The notes under the pieces were generated by a model. It ran no database searches and was not told where the DNA came from. It saw only the letters and a program-made list of their open reading frames with translations. Position numbers and translations under genes: made by a program. Positions 1,136 through 37,230 of a DNA stretch of 41,225 nucleotides are shown here, in pieces (position 1 is the first letter of the stretch; every line of letters begins with the position of its first letter). The DNA is taken from the IMG/VR virus record IMGVR_UViG_3300042922_000120, positions 1 through 41,225 of that record. One strand, written 5' to 3'. The DNA comes from a virus.

Positions 1136-1170
1136 CCATGAGACACGTTAGAGCTACCCATAGCTGAAAG
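1133..1170 (+). promoter_or_regulatory. phage RNA polymerase promoter, class III type (virion module)
   Basis: The core CGTTAGAGCTACCCATAG (1146-1163) is near-identical to the site at 20543-20578, with a shared upstream TGACCAT(A/G)AGACA. The CCCATAG ending resembles the CACTATAG start region of T7 promoters; initiation is expected near the last G. It lies in the 45-bp gap before the first virion-module gene and is probably read by the phage polymerase encoded at 27818. The call rests on repetition and position, not on a mapped transcript. Confidence 0.72.
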
Positions 1171-4678: not shown

Positions 4679-4696
4679 GATCGCACCTCTGTAAAT
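4679..4696 (+). promoter_or_regulatory. degenerate copy of the dispersed operator motif
   Basis: GATCGCACCTCTGTAAAT, eight bases after the preceding stop, matches the left half and centre of the GATCCCACNTCTG family. It is one of only two copies found in the virion module (the other is 18815-18832). Weaker than the copies in the early region. Confidence 0.4.
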
Positions 4697-4713: not shown

Positions 4714-4786
4714 CGGGAAGTCGTCCAAAGACTAGGACGCTGGGTAGCTCCCAGAAATGCTGGTTCAAGTCCAGCCATCCCGACCA
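4714..4786 (+). ncRNA. tRNA-like element upstream of the capsid gene (degenerate tRNA or processing signal)
   Basis: A 73-nt segment can fold like a tRNA. Acceptor arm CGGGAAG/CATCCCG has six of seven pairs and is followed by A and an encoded CCA (4784-4786). A four-pair D stem (GTCC/GGAC) is present. A perfect five-pair T arm has a canonical TTCAAGT loop (4759-4775). The D loop lacks the usual GG, and the anticodon arm gives either a five-base loop or a seven-base loop with one mismatch, so decoding is doubtful. It may be a decayed tRNA, or a tRNA mimic cut by RNase P in the leader of the capsid mRNA. No open reading frame lies in 4671-4868. Confidence 0.45.
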
Positions 4787-18814: not shown

Positions 18815-18832
18815 GATTGCACCTCTGGGATC
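18815..18832 (+). promoter_or_regulatory. copy of dispersed operator motif upstream of large terminase
   Basis: GATTGCACCTCTGGGATC keeps the right half (CTGGGATC) and centre of the family but has two changes in the left half. It lies in the 103-bp gap between the terminase genes, a gap that holds no other gene (T7 has the Rz-type gene 18.5 near here). Confidence 0.5.
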
Positions 18833-20545: not shown

Positions 20546-20578
20546 CCATAAGACACGTTAGGGCCACCCATAGTAGGA
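20543..20578 (+). promoter_or_regulatory. phage RNA polymerase promoter at right end (phi-OR-like)
   Basis: CGTTAGGGCCACCCATAG (20556-20573) followed by TAGGAGA, with the same upstream TGACCATAAGACA as the site near 1133. It lies at the end of the large terminase gene, where T7 has phi-OR near the genome end, a promoter used for replication/packaging rather than protein synthesis. No gene follows for 1.3 kb. Confidence 0.75.
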
Positions 20579-21669: not shown

Positions 21670-21699
21670 TTGACGTTCCCACATCTGTGATCCTATTGT
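21670..21699 (+). promoter_or_regulatory. early host-type (sigma70) promoter with operator in spacer
   Basis: TTGACG (21670-21675), 18-bp spacer, TATTGT (21694-21699). The spacer plus last -35 base is an operator-family copy (21675-21692, GTTCCCACATCTGTGATC), so a bound repressor would block host RNA polymerase. An AT-rich tract lies just upstream (21610-21668), like an UP element. It is the only strong host-type promoter I see before the early genes starting at 21897. Confidence 0.75.
21675..21692 (+). promoter_or_regulatory. operator motif copy inside early promoter
   Basis: GTTCCCACATCTGTGATC. Left half and centre are consensus, right half partly so. It lies between the -35 and -10 hexamers of the early promoter. 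Confidence 0.7.
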
Positions 21700-21831: not shown

Positions 21832-21878
21832 GATCCCTCTTCGGGATCACCAAAGGGCCTCATGGCGGGGCCTTTTGG
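21832..21878 (+). terminator. leader hairpins with terminator-like second stem
   Basis: GATCCC-TCTTC-GGGATC (21832-21848) is a perfect six-pair hairpin. CCAAAGGGCC...GGGCCTTTTGG (21850-21878) is a second, with a short T run on its 3' side. Placed between the boxA element and the first early gene, they could form an attenuator overcome by antitermination. Confidence 0.55.
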
Positions 21879-21992: not shown

Positions 21993-22010
21993 GTTCCCAC
22001 ATCTGACAAC
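21993..22010 (+). promoter_or_regulatory. operator/stoperator motif copy
   Basis: GTTCCCACATCTGACAAC, left half and centre consensus, right half degenerate; in the 40-bp gap between the first two early genes, same orientation as the others. Confidence 0.6.
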
Positions 22011-22822: not shown

Positions 22823-22840
22823 GATCCCACATCTGGGAAC
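22823..22840 (+). promoter_or_regulatory. operator/stoperator motif, near-perfect palindrome
   Basis: GATCCCACATCTGGGAAC: TCCCA and TGGGA arms around CATC, starting two bases after a TAA. One of the best copies and a useful reference for the consensus. Confidence 0.72.
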
Positions 22841-23520: not shown

Positions 23521-23538
23521 GATCCCACCTCTGGGAGC
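23521..23538 (+). promoter_or_regulatory. operator/stoperator motif copy
   Basis: GATCCCACCTCTGGGAGC, both arms present, two bases after the kinase-like gene's stop. Confidence 0.68.
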
Positions 23539-24078: not shown

Positions 24079-24096
24079 GATCCCACCTCTGCAACA
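24079..24096 (+). promoter_or_regulatory. operator/stoperator motif copy
   Basis: GATCCCACCTCTGCAACA, left half and centre perfect, right half lost; one base after a TAA. It supports an asymmetric consensus in which the left half matters most. Confidence 0.6.
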
Positions 24097-25318: not shown

Positions 25319-25336
25319 ATTCCCACAGATGGGAAC
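25319..25336. promoter_or_regulatory. palindromic operator upstream of the winged-helix gene
   Basis: ATTCCCACAGATGGGAAC: arms TTCCCA and TGGGAA around CAGA, 70 bp before the regulator start. It has the clearest two-sided symmetry of all copies; its position suggests autoregulation. Confidence 0.65.
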
Positions 25337-25405: not shown

Positions 25406-25729
25406 ATGAACGCATCAACAAGACACCTCCAACGCTCACTCTTATTGCTGGAGGAGTTTCGGAAGATAAACCCCGAAATGCCCATCCAAGTGGCGGCGAC
25501 ATTTCTGGTGATCGCGGAGACTCCTCGCATACCGTTCAGGGAAATCGGCCTGCGGACGGGTCAATCCTCTTCCGCAACCAACCGGAACGTTGCGCTTCTT
25601 GCCGGGAAGTACGGGACACCGCTCGTCGCTTACGGGCGTGATCCCAACGACGCTCGAAACAACATCGCGTGGCTGACCCCATTGGGAGAGAGGCTGGCCG
25701 CATCCATCGCACACTACATGGAGAAGTAA
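25406..25729 (+). CDS. small winged-helix DNA-binding regulator, candidate phage repressor, 107 aa
   Basis: Predicted MarR-like winged helix. An N-terminal dimerisation-type helix (TRHLQRSLLLLEEFRKI) precedes the recognition region IPFREIGLRTGQSSSATNRNVALLAG (about residues 43-68), and a wing-like LVAYGRDPNDARNNIAWL is followed by a final helix. ATG 25406 has AAGGAG (25390-25395) ten bases upstream. The stop directly abuts the integrase ATG. A palindromic operator lies 70 bp upstream. Its place next to the integrase and the operator network make it my best candidate for the lysogeny repressor, but it could instead control integration or excision. Confidence 0.72.
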   Translation: MNASTRHLQRSLLLLEEFRKINPEMPIQVAATFLVIAETPRIPFREIGLRTGQSSSATNRNVALLAGKYGTPLVAYGRDPNDARNNIAWLTPLGERLAASIAHYMEK

Positions 25730-26764
25730 ATGGCAATCAGACAGCGTGGATCGTCCTGGCAATGGGACAAGATGGTTCAAGGGGTGCGTCGTCGCGAGAC
25801 GTTCGCCTCTCAGAAGGAGGCCAAGGAGCACGAGAAGAAAGTGGTCGACGCTATGCTGGCGGGCGATCCTTATCCGTGCCCAAAGGATCCCACTTCTGGG
25901 CCAGAGGCCGAGAAGAACAGCAAGAAGGGGAGCCTGCGGGTCATGGCCGAACTCACCTTCAAGAAGCACTGGCAGTTCGACAAGTTCGGCAACCCCGGCA
26001 AGAACATCAAGAAGGCCCGCATCAACCTTGAACTGATGATGCAGCACTTCGGTGAGGACTGCATGGTCAAGTCCATCGGCACCTACGAGTTGGACGCATG
26101 GATCGACGCGCTCAAGGCGAAGGGCAATGCCAACGGCACGATCAACCGCAAGCTCGCGGTGCTCGGTAAGGTGTTGCGGCAGGCAATCCGTGAGAATGTC
26201 ATCGACACCATGCCGGTCATCGAGCGTCCCAAGGAGGGCGGCGGGCGTATCCGCTGGCTGTCCGACGAGGAAGAGACGGCAGTGCTCAACACGCTGCGGC
26301 GGTGGGAGAAGCACGACCACGTCGACACCATCATCTGCCTGCTCGATACCGGGATGCGTCCCTCTGAACTCTACGGGCTGACCAAGCGGGACATCGACCT
26401 AAAGACCGGGATGGTCACGGCGTGGGACACGAAGACCGGCAAGCCACGCTCAGTGCGGATGACCAAGCGGGTCCGTGAGATCATGATGCGGCGGCACAAC
26501 TATGCGACGCCGTTCCCGTACGACAACGAGTGGATGCGGAACGGATGGGACCGGGCTCGGAACCACCTCGGGTTCGCCAATGATCCCCACTTCGTGCCGT
26601 ACATCTGCCGCCACACCTGTGCCTCCCGGCTGGCGCAGCGCGGCGTCCGTCTACAGGTCATCAAGGAGTGGCTTGGTCACAGTGACATGCAGATGACGAT
26701 GAGGTACGCGCACCTCTCCCCCGGCAACCTCGAAGAGGCCGCGCAGGCCCTTGAGATGGCCTGA
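25730..26764 (+). CDS. int: tyrosine recombinase (phage integrase), 344 aa
   Basis: Catalyses integration and excision between phage and host attachment sites. An N-terminal arm-binding-like part (RQRGSSWQWDKMVQGVRRRETFASQKEAKEHE), a core-binding helical domain (about 70-165), and a catalytic domain are present. Catalytic residues: Arg210 in DTGMRPSEL, Lys in TKTGK (about 235-238), Tyr291-x-x-Arg294 (Tyr in place of the common His), His317 in WLGHSDM, and nucleophile Tyr326 in RYAHLSP. Start ATG 25730 abuts the regulator stop. An operator-family copy lies inside the gene at 25886. Confidence 0.95.
   Translation: MAIRQRGSSWQWDKMVQGVRRRETFASQKEAKEHEKKVVDAMLAGDPYPCPKDPTSGPEAEKNSKKGSLRVMAELTFKKHWQFDKFGNPGKNIKKARINLELMMQHFGEDCMVKSIGTYELDAWIDALKAKGNANGTINRKLAVLGKVLRQAIRENVIDTMPVIERPKEGGGRIRWLSDEEETAVLNTLRRWEKHDHVDTIICLLDTGMRPSELYGLTKRDIDLKTGMVTAWDTKTGKPRSVRMTKRVREIMMRRHNYATPFPYDNEWMRNGWDRARNHLGFANDPHFVPYICRHTCASRLAQRGVRLQVIKEWLGHSDMQMTMRYAHLSPGNLEEAAQALEMA
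25886..25903 (+). promoter_or_regulatory. operator motif copy inside the integrase gene
   Basis: GATCCCACTTCTGGGCCA, 13 or more consensus positions, encoding DPTSGP in the integrase linker between the N-terminal and core-binding parts. Its presence in coding DNA suggests selection for protein binding as a roadblock, or is chance. Confidence 0.5.
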
Positions 26765-26805: not shown

Positions 26806-27354
26806 ATGCTCTACGACTTCTACAAAGCTACCAACATGGCCTCGTTCGACTTCTCCCGCCTCGCCGGTCCCGACCGCATCTTGGGGAGCAACTATTCGGA
26901 CAAGCTCTATGGCGGGGCGGGCAACGACAAGATCGACGGCTACGCTGGCAACGACACGCTCAAGGGCGGGGACGGTAAGGATTGGCTCTACGGGAGCCTC
27001 GGTAAGGATACCCTCTACGGGGGAGCCGGTGCCGACAAGTTCGTCTTCAAGAACACTATTGATAGTTGGTCGATCCTCGACTTCAAGCACATGGACACCA
27101 TCGCGGACTTCTCCCGTGGGCAGAAGGACAAGATCGACCTCCACTACATCGACGCTGACGTGACGCGGGCCGGGAACAACGCATTCACCTTCGTGGGCAA
27201 GGCGGGCTTCAGCGGGAAGGCCGGGGAGCTGACGACCTTGGACACCAAGTCGGGCACCTACGTCGGTGGAGACACGAACGGCGACACCATCCAAGACTTC
27301 ATGGTGTTCGTGAAGGGCGTCCATGTGATCACCAAGGGAGACTTCCACCTTTGA
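26806..27354 (+). CDS. RTX calcium-binding protein with serralysin-type C-terminus, 182 aa
   Basis: Five nonapeptide RTX repeats (YGGAGNDKI, DGYAGNDTL, KGGDGKDWL, YGSLGKDTL, YGGAGADKF; about residues 39-84) would bind calcium and fold outside the cell. The following segment DTIADFSRGQKDKIDLHYIDAD...GDTNGDTIQDF...ITKGDFHL matches the C-terminal domain of serralysins and related type I-secreted proteins, which ends in a secretion signal. No protease domain is present. It lies between integrase and tRNA, so in a prophage it would sit at the edge: a likely cargo (conversion) gene. ATG 26806 has AAGGAA upstream. Export would need a host type I secretion system. Confidence 0.85.
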   Translation: MLYDFYKATNMASFDFSRLAGPDRILGSNYSDKLYGGAGNDKIDGYAGNDTLKGGDGKDWLYGSLGKDTLYGGAGADKFVFKNTIDSWSILDFKHMDTIADFSRGQKDKIDLHYIDADVTRAGNNAFTFVGKAGFSGKAGELTTLDTKSGTYVGGDTNGDTIQDFMVFVKGVHVITKGDFHL

Positions 27355-27398: not shown

Positions 27399-27416
27399 GA
27401 TTGCAGAACTGGGAAC
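27399..27416 (+). promoter_or_regulatory. operator motif copy after RTX gene
   Basis: GATTGCAGAACTGGGAAC, right half consensus, left half changed. It lies between the RTX gene and the tRNA. Confidence 0.45.
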
Positions 27417-27448
27417 GTATGTCACAAAACCTGTGACAATGGCCTCTC

Positions 27449-27535
27449 GCGGACGTGGCGAAATGGTATACGCAGCAGACTTAAAATCTGCCGCCCTTCA
27501 AAGGCTTACGGGTTCGAGTCCCGTCGTCCGCACCA
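27449..27535 (+). tRNA. tRNA-Leu (anticodon UAA), probable attP carrier
   Basis: Complete class II tRNA of 87 nt. Seven-pair acceptor GCGGACG/CGTCCGC with A and encoded CCA at 27533-27535; D stem GCG/CGC; anticodon stem GCAGA/TCTGC with loop CTTAAAA giving UAA (27482-27484); long variable arm with GCC/GGC; T stem ACGGG/CCCGT with TTCGAGT loop. UUA codons are rare in this GC-rich genome, so a translation role is unlikely. Position downstream of the integrase suggests that its 3' part is the attachment site and restores the host tRNA gene on integration, as in temperate podophages of marine bacteria. Confidence 0.9.
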
Positions 27536-27643: not shown

Positions 27644-27661
27644 GTTCCCACATGTGACATC
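27644..27661 (+). promoter_or_regulatory. operator motif copy
   Basis: GTTCCCACATGTGACATC, left half consensus, centre changed by one base; overlaps a TGTGACA heptamer, upstream of the RNA polymerase gene. Confidence 0.45.
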
Positions 27662-27707: not shown

Positions 27708-27725
27708 GTTCCCACTTCTGCATTT
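27708..27725 (+). promoter_or_regulatory. operator motif copy upstream of RNA polymerase promoter
   Basis: GTTCCCACTTCTGCATTT, left half and centre consensus. It lies 26 bp before the phage-type promoter of the polymerase gene, where a repressor could block readthrough or open-complex formation. Confidence 0.6.
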
Positions 27726-27737
27726 CTACCCAACAAA

Positions 27738-27773
27738 TCCCCCGTGTGACAACGAGGGCTACCCCTAGCAGTG
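27738..27773 (+). promoter_or_regulatory. phage RNA polymerase promoter, class II type (autogenous)
   Basis: AATCCCCCGTGTGACAACGA then GGGCTACCCCTAGC (27755-27768). Near-identical copies occur at 30425-30463 and 33216-33253. It is upstream of the phage polymerase gene itself, so the enzyme would reinforce its own synthesis. The start is expected near the G of CTAG (27768). Confidence 0.72.
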
Positions 27774-27817
27774 GCCATCCTGTCTCCGCTCAGATTCATT
27801 CCCATAGGAGTCCATCC

Positions 27818-30382
27818 GTGATCGACCATCCCCTCTATCAGGCCCAGATCGACCTTGAGTACGACATGGTCACCGCTGGCCGGGACAAGTTCCTGTCGAC
27901 CATGCAAAAGGCGGCAACCCGCCAGAACGAGAGCGAGACCCCATACGGCGTCCTCCTCATGAAGAAGATGCACTCCGAGGTCACCGAGGCCATCCAAGCG
28001 GAGATCAACGCAGCCGCCATGGGCCGCCCCGGTAGGCGTCGGGCTCACGTCACCTACCTGACCTACCTCGGGGCTGACGTGTCGGCCTACATCGCCCTCC
28101 GTGGGATCCTCGACGGGATCTCCTCGGTGCGTCGGGCTCAGACCCTCGCCCTGTCCATCGCCCGCCTCTTTCAGGATCAGGTCCGCCTCGACAAGTTCAT
28201 GGCCGAGAACCCTGACAAGTACGAGGTCACCATGCGTCAGGTCGAGAAGGCCACCTCGTACCGCTACAAGTCCGTGGTCTCCCGTCTCATGATGAACCGG
28301 ACGGGTCTCGTGGATCCGGCTGACTGGTCCCAGACGGACATGGCCCACCTCGGGTTCCTCCTGATGGACCTCGCGAACAACGTGACGGGTCTGCTGGAGA
28401 AGCGGCACATCATCAAGGGCTCCCAACAGGTGGGCGTCGAGATGATCCCGACCGACCTCGCCCGTGAGTGGGTCGCCAAGTGCAAGACCACCTTCGAGAT
28501 CCTGTCCCCTGAGTACCTCCCCACGATCATCCCCCCGAAGCCGTGGGCTGGCCCGAAGAACGGCGGCTACTACACAGGCATGGCCCGCCGCATCAAGTTC
28601 GTCATCAAGTCCAAGGCTGGGTACAACAAGGGGCTCGCCGGGAAGGACATGGCCAAGGTCTACGACGCCGTGAACGCCATCCAAGAGACCCCATGGAAGG
28701 TCAACAAGCCGGTGCTCGATGTCCTCCTTGCGATCTGGGAGGGCGAGCGTTCGGCCAAGGGTCTGCCCGCGCTCCGTGATGCGGACGCCCCGGTCAAGGC
28801 CTGCGAGAACCTCAAGGAGGTCGACCCGGATGCCTTCAAGGTGTGGAAGCGGAAGGCCAACAAGGTGATCCAAGAGAACATCGCCATGACCTCGAAGCGC
28901 AAGGCTCTCCTGTCCACCATCCAAGCCGCGAAGAAGATGAGCGCCTACGAGGAGTTCTACTTCCCCCATCAGGTGGACTTCCGGGGCCGCGCCTATGCGA
29001 TCCCGAAGTTCCTCAACCCGCAGGGTAACGATGTGACCAAGAGCCTCCTCACGTTCGCCCATGGGATCCCCTTGGGTGAGGACGGCTGGCAGTACCTCGC
29101 CATTCAGGGCGCGAACACCTACGGCAACGATAAGATCAGCCTGGAGGAGCGCGTTCAGTGGGTGCTCGACAACCAAGAGAGCATCCTCCGGGTCGCTGCC
29201 GATCCGCTCGGTGACGGCTTCGACTTCTGGCAGGCCGCAGGCGAGACGTGGTGTTTCCTCGCGTTCTGCTTCGAGTGGGCCGGGTACGTGGCCGAGGGTG
29301 ATGCCTTCTGCTCGTCCCTTCCCATCGCCATGGACGGATCCTGCAACGGCATCCAGCACTACTCCGCTGTCCTGCGGGATCAGGTCGGTGGTGCCGCCAC
29401 GAACCTCGTACCGTCCACCTCGGGTAAGCCTTCGGACATCTACGGTGAAGTCGCAGGCCGCGCCGTGGAATACCTCACGGCCTTATTGCGTCCTGAGGTT
29501 CCCACTTCTGGGTTCCTTGCTGACCTGATCGAGGGCTGGGAGAAGGTGAAGGTGGACGAGGAGACCGGGGAGGTTCTCCGGGACTCGGTCGACTACAAGG
29601 ACATGGCCCGCCAGTGGCTCCGGTTCGGTGTGGATCGCTCGATCTCCAAGCGTTCGGTCATGACCCTGCCTTACGGGTCCAGCCAGCGTTCGTCCCGCGA
29701 CTTCATCGACGAGGCGATCCGCAAGAAGATCAAGGAGAAGGGCGTGGAGAACGTGTTCCAGATCGACGAGGAGGACGATGGCATCTTCGACGCCGCCCTG
29801 TTCCTCAACCCCCTCATCTGGCAGGCCATCGGTGACACCGTGAAGGCTGCTCGGGAGGGCATGAAGTGGCTCAAGGATTGCGTGGTCCTCGTCTCGAAGG
29901 CCAACAGCCCGATGCTCTGGCAGACCCCGGATGGGTTCCCTGTCGAGCAGGCCTACTATGTCCAGAAGGTCACCAAGGTGAAGACGCACATCGCTGGCGA
30001 GGTCACCGTTCTCAACCTCACGGAGGACACCGCCGAGATCAACAAGCGGGAGCAGGCCAACGGCATCGCTCCGAACTGGGTCCACTCCATGGACGCCACC
30101 GCCATGCGTGGTGCTGTCCGCCAGTCGGTCGAAGAGGGCATCGGGTACTTCGCCATGATCCACGACTCGTTCGGGACACACGCGGGCAACTCGGCACCGT
30201 TCGCTCGGATCATCCGGGAGAGCTTCGTCCGTCTCTACACCGACAATAAGCCGCTCGAAGACTTCCAGCGTCAGGTCTTGGCGCTGGTCACCGACAAGGA
30301 TGCGGAGAAGGTTCCGGCCATCCCGGCCAAAGGCACATTGGAACTGGATCAGGTTCTCCAGTCCGATTTCTTCTTTGCCTAA
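27818..30382 (+). CDS. single-subunit DNA-dependent RNA polymerase (T7 gp1 family), 854 aa
   Basis: Transcribes late phage genes from the repeated phage promoters. Motifs: DFRGRAYAIP (residues 387-396), motif A AMDGSCNGIQHYS with Asp506, motif B SKRSVMTLPYGSS with Lys611 and Tyr619, NGIAPNWVHSMDATAMR, and motif C MIHDSFGTHAG with Asp783; spacing agrees with T7 (883 aa). GTG 27818 is chosen as start because TAGGAG precedes it by seven bases and the longer frame would run through the promoter. The gene ends FFA. An operator-family copy lies inside at 29498. Confidence 0.97.
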   Translation: MIDHPLYQAQIDLEYDMVTAGRDKFLSTMQKAATRQNESETPYGVLLMKKMHSEVTEAIQAEINAAAMGRPGRRRAHVTYLTYLGADVSAYIALRGILDGISSVRRAQTLALSIARLFQDQVRLDKFMAENPDKYEVTMRQVEKATSYRYKSVVSRLMMNRTGLVDPADWSQTDMAHLGFLLMDLANNVTGLLEKRHIIKGSQQVGVEMIPTDLAREWVAKCKTTFEILSPEYLPTIIPPKPWAGPKNGGYYTGMARRIKFVIKSKAGYNKGLAGKDMAKVYDAVNAIQETPWKVNKPVLDVLLAIWEGERSAKGLPALRDADAPVKACENLKEVDPDAFKVWKRKANKVIQENIAMTSKRKALLSTIQAAKKMSAYEEFYFPHQVDFRGRAYAIPKFLNPQGNDVTKSLLTFAHGIPLGEDGWQYLAIQGANTYGNDKISLEERVQWVLDNQESILRVAADPLGDGFDFWQAAGETWCFLAFCFEWAGYVAEGDAFCSSLPIAMDGSCNGIQHYSAVLRDQVGGAATNLVPSTSGKPSDIYGEVAGRAVEYLTALLRPEVPTSGFLADLIEGWEKVKVDEETGEVLRDSVDYKDMARQWLRFGVDRSISKRSVMTLPYGSSQRSSRDFIDEAIRKKIKEKGVENVFQIDEEDDGIFDAALFLNPLIWQAIGDTVKAAREGMKWLKDCVVLVSKANSPMLWQTPDGFPVEQAYYVQKVTKVKTHIAGEVTVLNLTEDTAEINKREQANGIAPNWVHSMDATAMRGAVRQSVEEGIGYFAMIHDSFGTHAGNSAPFARIIRESFVRLYTDNKPLEDFQRQVLALVTDKDAEKVPAIPAKGTLELDQVLQSDFFFA
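29498..29515 (+). promoter_or_regulatory. operator motif copy inside the RNA polymerase gene
   Basis: GTTCCCACTTCTGGGTTC, both arms nearly consensus, encoding part of PEVPTSGF within the polymerase. A roadblock role for a bound repressor is possible. Confidence 0.5.
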
Positions 30383-30384
30383 AG

Positions 30385-30402
30385 GATCCCACTTCTGCAA
30401 AC
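30385..30402 (+). promoter_or_regulatory. operator/stoperator motif copy
   Basis: GATCCCACTTCTGCAAAC, left half and centre consensus, two bases after the polymerase stop and before the next phage promoter. Confidence 0.62.
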
Positions 30403-30424
30403 GTTACGCTGATCACGGCGGGAA

Positions 30425-30463
30425 ATCCCCCGCTGTGACAACGAGGGCTACCCCTAGCATTCA
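30425..30463 (+). promoter_or_regulatory. phage RNA polymerase promoter, class II type
   Basis: AATCCCCCGCTGTGACAACGAGGGCTACCCCTAGC in register with the copy upstream of the polymerase; start expected near 30458. It drives the small-gene/SSB/endonuclease/lysis unit. Confidence 0.72.
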
Positions 30464-31393: not shown

Positions 31394-31411
31394 GATCCCA
31401 CTACTGACACC
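31394..31411 (+). promoter_or_regulatory. operator/stoperator motif copy
   Basis: GATCCCACTACTGACACC, left half consensus, two bases after a stop and 14 bases before an intrinsic terminator. Confidence 0.52.
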
Positions 31412-33217: not shown

Positions 33218-33253
33218 TCCCCCCGTGTGACAACGAGGGTTACCCCTAGCCTA
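33216..33253 (+). promoter_or_regulatory. phage RNA polymerase promoter, class II type
   Basis: AATCCCCCCGTGTGACAACGAGGGTTACCCCTAGC, one base different in the core from the other two; start expected near 33250. It drives the replication gene unit. Confidence 0.72.
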
Positions 33254-36544: not shown

Positions 36545-36562
36545 GTTCCCATAAGTGGGACT
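36545..36562. promoter_or_regulatory. operator/stoperator motif copy
   Basis: GTTCCCATAAGTGGGACT, both arms present around a different centre (TAAG), six bases after the primase-helicase stop. Confidence 0.55.
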
Positions 36563-37212: not shown

Positions 37213-37230
37213 GTTCCCACAACTGGGAGC
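37213..37230 (+). promoter_or_regulatory. operator/stoperator motif copy
   Basis: GTTCCCACAACTGGGAGC, both arms present, about 11 bases after a stop and 28 bases before the DNA polymerase start. Confidence 0.6.

Follow-up and report, generated by a model that had tools for sequence, protein, structure and literature searches.

A T7-type RNA polymerase gene with a probable promoter of its own and a dispersed array of candidate MarR-like operators in a putatively temperate phage

The window analyzed here is a 41,225-nt virus record, the two ends of which repeat for 127 bases. Its gene content includes a T7-type RNA polymerase, an integrase, an SSB, a primase-helicase, a DNA polymerase, and a T7-like terminase, and the polymerase, the integrase, and a MarR-like gene lie close together in the module order of temperate T7-like phages (Table 1). 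GTG 27821 is the most likely start codon of the polymerase gene, because AGGAG lies just upstream and the phrog_414 match covers the longer reading frame, which opens at 27746, only from residue 30 on. The tRNA-Leu is likely the attachment site; a tRNA-Leu near the integrase was also found in LUZ100, Pasto, and Lo5R7ANS. TGTGACA/TGTCACA repeats cluster around this tRNA gene between 27420 and 27760 (TGTCACA-N5-TGTGACA at 27420), also form the 5' part of three middle promoters, and may be arm sites for the integrase or a site for another regulator. Between the integrase gene and the tRNA-Leu, the ORF at 26806-27354 carries RTX calcium-binding repeats (PF00353, E 9.1e-18) and is possibly a passenger gene. 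Elsewhere, the ORF at 22634-23518 matches phrog_15752 (T7-type protein kinase/inhibitor of host transcription), and a tRNA-Ala (anticodon AGC) is located at 4714-4786 within the structural region.

Table 1. Positions, strands, and supporting evidence of the features discussed; operator-type and promoter assignments are predictions.
Feature	Position	Strand	Evidence or remark
Late-type phage promoter variant	1141..1168	+	Core search and matrix; +1 at 1163; before structural genes
Weak operator-type site	4679..4696	+	Matrix 12.8; after ORF end, before tRNA-Ala; least certain listed
Weaker operator-type site	18815..18832	+	Matrix 15.3; before terminase large-subunit gene
Late-type phage promoter variant	20551..20578	+	Core search and matrix; +1 at 20573; just after terminase gene
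Operator-type site	21675..21692	+	Exact pattern; between TTGACG (21670) and TATTGT (to 21699)
Operator-type site	21993..22010	+	Exact pattern
Operator-type site, near-palindrome	22823..22840	+	Exact pattern and matrix; directly after stop codon
Operator-type site	23521..23538	+	Exact pattern; directly after stop codon
Operator-type site	24079..24096	+	Exact pattern; directly after stop codon
Palindrome ATTCCCACAGATGGGAAC, possible operator	25319..25336		Upstream of MarR-like gene
MarR-like winged-helix protein, candidate repressor	25406..25729	+	107 aa; beside integrase gene
Tyrosine integrase	25730..26764	+	PF00589, E 7.1e-21
Operator-type site	25886..25903	+	Exact pattern and matrix; inside integrase gene
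Operator-type site, reverse orientation	27399..27416	-	Matrix 21.7; beside tRNA-Leu
tRNA-Leu (TAA)	27449..27535	+	Between integrase and polymerase genes
Second operator-type site upstream of polymerase promoter	27644..27661	+	Matrix 21.7
Operator-type site upstream of polymerase promoter	27708..27725	+	13-mer 27708-27720; exact pattern; matrix 26.1, leave-one-out 17.6
Phage promoter cassette of RNA polymerase gene	27735..27769	+	35-bp repeat common to 30424 and 33216; putative +1 G 27768
T7-type single-subunit RNA polymerase	27821..30382	+	PF00940, E 3.6e-98
Operator-type site	29498..29515	+	Exact pattern and matrix; inside polymerase gene, reads ValProThrSerGly
Operator-type site	30385..30402	+	Exact pattern; directly after polymerase stop codon; equivalent element in relatives
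Phage promoter behind RNA polymerase gene	30424..30458	+	35-bp repeat and matrix; +1 at 30457
Operator-type site	31394..31411	+	Exact pattern; directly after stop codon
Third middle-type phage promoter	33216..33250	+	35-bp repeat and matrix; +1 at 33249; directly after ORF ending 33217
Weaker operator-type site, near-palindrome	36545..36562	+	Matrix 15.7; after helicase gene
Operator-type site	37213..37230	+	Exact pattern; 12 nt after ORF end

Upstream of the polymerase gene lies a 25-bp repeat, TGTGACAACGAGGGCTACCCCTAGC (27745-27769), with an exact second copy at 30434 and a one-mismatch copy at 33226. A search with the core ACCCMTAG revealed two variants, ACACGTTAGRGCYACCCATAG, with +1 positions at 1163 and 20573, and the promoter-type sites in the window thus number five, all on the plus strand and before middle and late genes. 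Two sub-types were apparent, CCCATAG in late positions (1163, 20573) and CCCCTAG in middle positions (27768, 30457, 33249). The five sites scored 28.8-36.7 on their own matrix, the cassette before the polymerase gene reaching 36.7, compared with a maximum of 15.1 in 40 mononucleotide shuffles; the leave-one-out scores were 14.9-29.9, the weakest of which falls inside the shuffled range. The next plus-strand match scored only 11.5, and the top minus-strand score (17.2) lay over the partly self-complementary 30434 promoter itself. The 25-mer was absent from viral_contigs in an exact scan. The cassette before the polymerase gene is placed like the repeated words in relatives and like the mapped phi1 promoter of LUZ100, and the position of the one behind the gene matches LUZ100 phi2. 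As judged from repeat structure and placement, the 25-mer is very probably a promoter of the phage polymerase, and the polymerase gene is most likely served by a phage promoter of its own, probably one used by the polymerase that it encodes.

This layout was compared among relatives by searching for a same-strand 18-mer common to both flanks of the polymerase gene (at least 16/18 matches; 300 bp upstream versus 250 bp downstream). Such a word was found in 46 of the 105 related loci, compared with 1/105 on the opposite strand and 7/400 cross-locus pairs, the sample comprising those 105 loci (out of 106), the window among them, for which sequence was at hand on both sides of the gene. The 46 hits are not independent, over a dozen of them carrying one promoter word, TAGTACCCCTATTAGAAC, and the shared element is operator-like rather than promoter-like in L213, L216, L031, L184, and L024 and ambiguous in L187. 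A sliding 20-mer test was set aside in favor of this flank test owing to its noisy controls. Named phages were compared as the window and fifteen records, ten with an integrase or likely integrase and six without one in the stretch viewed. Within the former group, the window, BB8, Limnohabitans YIMV22061, RHEph01, CRP-125, and RHEph21 reached at least 16/18; Pasto, Lo5R7ANS, and ProddE remained below this value, and LUZ100 reached 15/18, although its mapped promoters are at both flanks. Two of the six records without an integrase (phiA014S and PPpW-4) also reached at least 16/18, and the promoter before the polymerase gene is therefore not a lysogeny device as such. From these comparisons, it appears to be a common feature that extends beyond integrase-bearing phages.

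The second repeated element, the 13-mer RWTCCCACNNCTG, occurred in 11 exact copies on the plus strand and none on the minus strand of the whole window, against a mean expectation of 0.017 per strand (maximum, 1) in sixty dinucleotide shuffles; the pattern read backwards occurred 0 times on either strand. No exact copy falls among the structural genes, and seven of the 11 precede the polymerase gene; several sites lie directly 3' of stop codons, and two within genes. A matrix built from the exact sites, with a background of 0.12 shuffled hits per strand at scores of at least 13, added sites at 27644 (+), 27416 (-), 36545, 18815, and 4679. A plus-strand match at 21832 (matrix, 13.7) lies within a GATCCC-GGGATC dyad and was not counted as an operator. 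L009 carries CTCCCACAAGTG in what appears, by eye, to be the linker homologous to that containing the 25886 site of the integrase gene. The site at 21675 is embedded between two hexamers in an arrangement similar to that of the LUZ100 promoters P1 and P2, and these hexamers are possibly a host promoter; the sigma-70-like match at 21670 is at chance level when taken alone (2 found versus 2.1 expected). The number and placement of the 13-mers indicate that they are very probably repressor operators.

A first-pass annotation of this DNA had proposed a promoter and an operator copy before the polymerase gene, and both were recovered, the 25-mer at 27745-27769 and the 13-mer at 27708-27720, as was the motif copy that it placed inside the gene at 29498, which is an exact pattern match. 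Its figure of 26 bp for the distance of the upstream copy depends on the promoter start chosen, the spacing between the two elements being 24 bp. The operators at 27644 and 30385 and the late-type promoters at 1163 and 20573 go beyond that annotation.

The candidate repressor is the MarR-like protein encoded beside the integrase gene. Its AlphaFold model is a winged helix (pLDDT 94), and the best PDB matches in Foldseek were MarR-family proteins (TMq about 0.6-0.7). The protein remains under the Pfam cut-offs (MarR_2, 18.2 bits versus a cut-off of 27) and is therefore called MarR-like rather than a Pfam member. Homologues are present in many relatives, upstream of the polymerase gene in those checked; a scan with the MarR-like protein alone matched 5 stretches, none from a relative. 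By eye, the helix type varied with the operator type: SQ..SRN with TATCCAC, [KR]S..[ST]R[NH] with TCCC-N6-GGGA, PQTT.[NS]R with CTAAC-type elements, and SSSATNRN of the window with GATCCCACNTCTG. The loci are related to one another, and this apparent pairing is support rather than proof. The MarR-like gene product is likely the repressor acting at the 13-mers. The palindrome upstream of its gene was inconspicuous in the marR-upstream test described below. Further upstream, at about 25003, lies TTATCCACA, a DnaA-box-like sequence. A DnaA-box reading of the LUZ100-type operator, based on the likeness of CTATCCAC to the DnaA-box sequence TTATCCACA, was dropped, as the first base and the bases after CAC differ.

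Elements equivalent to the operator were found behind the polymerase gene of relatives. Of 90 distinct elements, 41 had DTCCV within 14 nt after the polymerase stop codon, compared with 25 of 270 control windows further downstream, and WTCCMC followed the stop codon in 23/90 versus 4/270; the 90 elements are those left from 107 examined after removal of duplicates and of loci without a stop codon or enough sequence. Dyad symmetry was raised in these post-stop elements (p 4e-6). In the 13 loci where marR could be located, a match to the post-stop element lay upstream of the polymerase gene in 11 at a threshold of at least 11/14 (shuffled elements, 13.6%) and in 5 at a threshold of at least 12/14 (shuffled, 1.8%). 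The element was not enriched upstream of marR in the same 13 loci (4/13 at at least 11/14; shuffled, 15.1%), leaving MarR autoregulation via the same operator site unsupported. In 145 pooled loci, the LUZ100-type pattern was distributed 134:35 by strand and its reversed control 71:23, an orientation indistinguishable from composition bias; with the control similarly skewed, a family-wide orientation bias was not supported, and the one-sidedness is shown for the window only. The site inside the polymerase gene of L016, L017, L020, L048, L175, and L180 was not used as evidence, as it occupies the same place in related genes and may reflect coding conservation. A viral_contigs scan for TTCCCACNNCTGGGAA gave single scattered hits among the matches listed, which were taken as chance. 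A second dispersed palindrome, GTGCAGTSACTGCAC or similar, is present in several copies per locus in L009, L010, L013, L203, and L204; palindromes of this type sometimes lie 8-14 bp before a phage promoter. The presence of a second palindrome in relatives such as L009 and L010 counts against the explanation that we favor below.

Much of this organization recurs in LUZ100, the start sites of which were mapped by ONT-cappable-seq (PMC10134795). Like the window, LUZ100 has a MarR, an integrase, and a T7-like polymerase in the same gene order except for the place of the tRNA-Leu, with phage promoters before and behind the polymerase gene (phi1 and phi2), two operator-type sites upstream of the polymerase promoter, and a third immediately after the gene. 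LUZ100 further resembles the window in carrying the element within host promoters, whereas the promoter and operator sequences differ. In both P1 and P2, TTGACA and TAAGAT are 17 nt apart, and CTATCCACCAGCGCA falls within that spacer; these promoters look like duplicates and thus do not represent two independent cases. Two further copies of the element precede phi1, and another, ahead of phi2, immediately follows the polymerase gene; seven LUZ100-type sites were found in the 11-kb stretch viewed. The LUZ100 authors noted that a promoter before the polymerase raises questions on regulation. They had already put forward a feedback loop in which the polymerase is expressed from its own promoter and MarR keeps it off, and they quoted an earlier proposal that MarR sites flank the polymerase promoter in temperate T7-like phages; the main text of the LUZ100 report names no operator sequence, palindrome, inverted repeat, or stoperator (PMC10134795). 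Rhizobium phage Pasto and the temperate T7-like prophages cited for LUZ100 also have an integrase and an HTH regulator upstream of the T7-like polymerase gene, as here; unlike in the window, the flank test found neither a promoter word nor an operator element in Pasto. We would class our finding as a variant of the control module of temperate T7-like phages, in which the dispersed one-direction operator array is the newer part, the general idea having previously been proposed for LUZ100. A literature search brought up no dispersed operator array described for T7-like phages; the earlier MarR-site proposal may contain operator sequences.

On balance, we lean toward one joint explanation, in which the region would serve lysis/lysogeny control of a temperate T7-like phage and a self-amplifying polymerase would be kept off by MarR-like operators acting on the host polymerase. 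Host polymerase would supply the first dose of phage polymerase, which would then transcribe its own gene from 27735-27769 and amplify itself. The MarR-like protein (25406-25729) would have the 13-18 bp sites as its operators, and in a lysogen it would occupy a putative early host promoter at 21675 and the sites behind or inside host-transcribed genes, blocking both initiation by host polymerase and its read-through into the gene of the phage polymerase. At 27644 and 27708, the operators would halt such read-through before that gene, not covering the phage promoter. The loop would be off for the simpler reason that no polymerase is made, and self-amplification would begin as soon as host polymerase passed the block. 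What we observed directly is how many sites there are, where they lie, and that they face one way in the window, together with a layout that is conserved among relatives. MarR binding to the sites, the block of host polymerase, and the resulting switch are what we infer for this explanation, and the switch might be bistable, that is, two-state.

An alternative, which we consider unlikely while still the strongest competitor, is a direct block, in which repressor bound at 27708 (and 27644) would prevent initiation by the phage polymerase at its own promoter. T7-type polymerases contact roughly -17 to the start, and the gap between the operator and the -17 position is 28 bp before the polymerase gene and 40 bp behind it in the window, and 70 and 32 bp in LUZ100. 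Operators and polymerase promoters do lie close together, both in the window and in relatives, and behind the gene of L213, L216, and L225 the two are contiguous or overlap slightly (gaps of 0, -1, and -3 bp), which would suit direct occlusion there. With measured gaps of -3 to 169 bp overall, occlusion of the phage polymerase does not serve as a general answer, and it leaves the operators behind early genes or inside genes unexplained. Operators within host promoters, downstream of host-transcribed early genes, and in coding sequence are better suited to a block of host polymerase. The direct block is the model drawn in the LUZ100 report (PMC10134795). The first-pass proposal of a self-promoted loop held off by an operator thus stands in part: a phage promoter of the gene's own is likely, and operator-type elements lie just upstream of and behind the gene, but the 28-bp gap makes occlusion unlikely.

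That the 13-mers act at the RNA level, as processing or stability sites, would account for the 11:0 orientation in the window and for the many sites directly 3' of stop codons, and by eye a longer hairpin can be drawn behind the polymerase gene in some relatives. The window copies share only a dyad with a 4-nt loop, in about half of them (by eye), and the LUZ100 element lies between the -35 and -10 boxes of two mapped host promoters and hence is untranscribed from them, making an RNA element improbable. Least probable is a reversal of roles, with the 13-mers as the true phage promoters and the 25-mer as something else: they are many, one-stranded, and intergenic, with CAC and often GGGA downstream, a little like the T7 promoter consensus, but the exact copies are concentrated upstream of the polymerase gene and missing among the structural genes, which the late-type variant of the 25-mer does precede, and in LUZ100 the mapped phi promoters are the other element while the 13-mer equivalent sits in host promoters.

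Under the favored block of host polymerase, the array may be compared with the stoperators of L5-type mycobacteriophages, asymmetric sites that follow the direction of transcription and fail when reversed (PMC9283540). Like the L5 (Cluster A) stoperators in that account, the window sites number more than a dozen and are short, asymmetric, and aligned with transcription (11 plus-strand and 0 minus-strand exact copies), and lie in a promoter-like place and in short intergenic gaps (PMC9283540). In contrast, the L5 repressor is a monomeric two-domain protein whereas the window candidate is MarR-like, the phage is T7-like, and some sites are inside genes; the likeness concerns site layout alone, and no L5-type repressor was noticed among the part of the window ORFs scanned. 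We tentatively suggest, at somewhat below even confidence, an independently evolved stoperator system in T7-like temperate phages, in which a small MarR-like protein and a dozen or more polar sites, including those inside the integrase and polymerase genes and those overlapping stop codons, would act as a one-way barrier against host polymerase and thereby keep the self-amplifying polymerase from igniting in a lysogen.

The question at stake is how a phage with a self-amplifying polymerase stays dormant. Our analysis supplies specific operator sequences, names a candidate repressor, and points to host promoters in which an operator lies between the -35 and -10 boxes, by which the dormancy question could be reduced to a simple binding and reporter experiment, and the scattered one-direction sites make the idea testable. 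The module may also offer paired promoters, polymerases, and repressors of new specificity.
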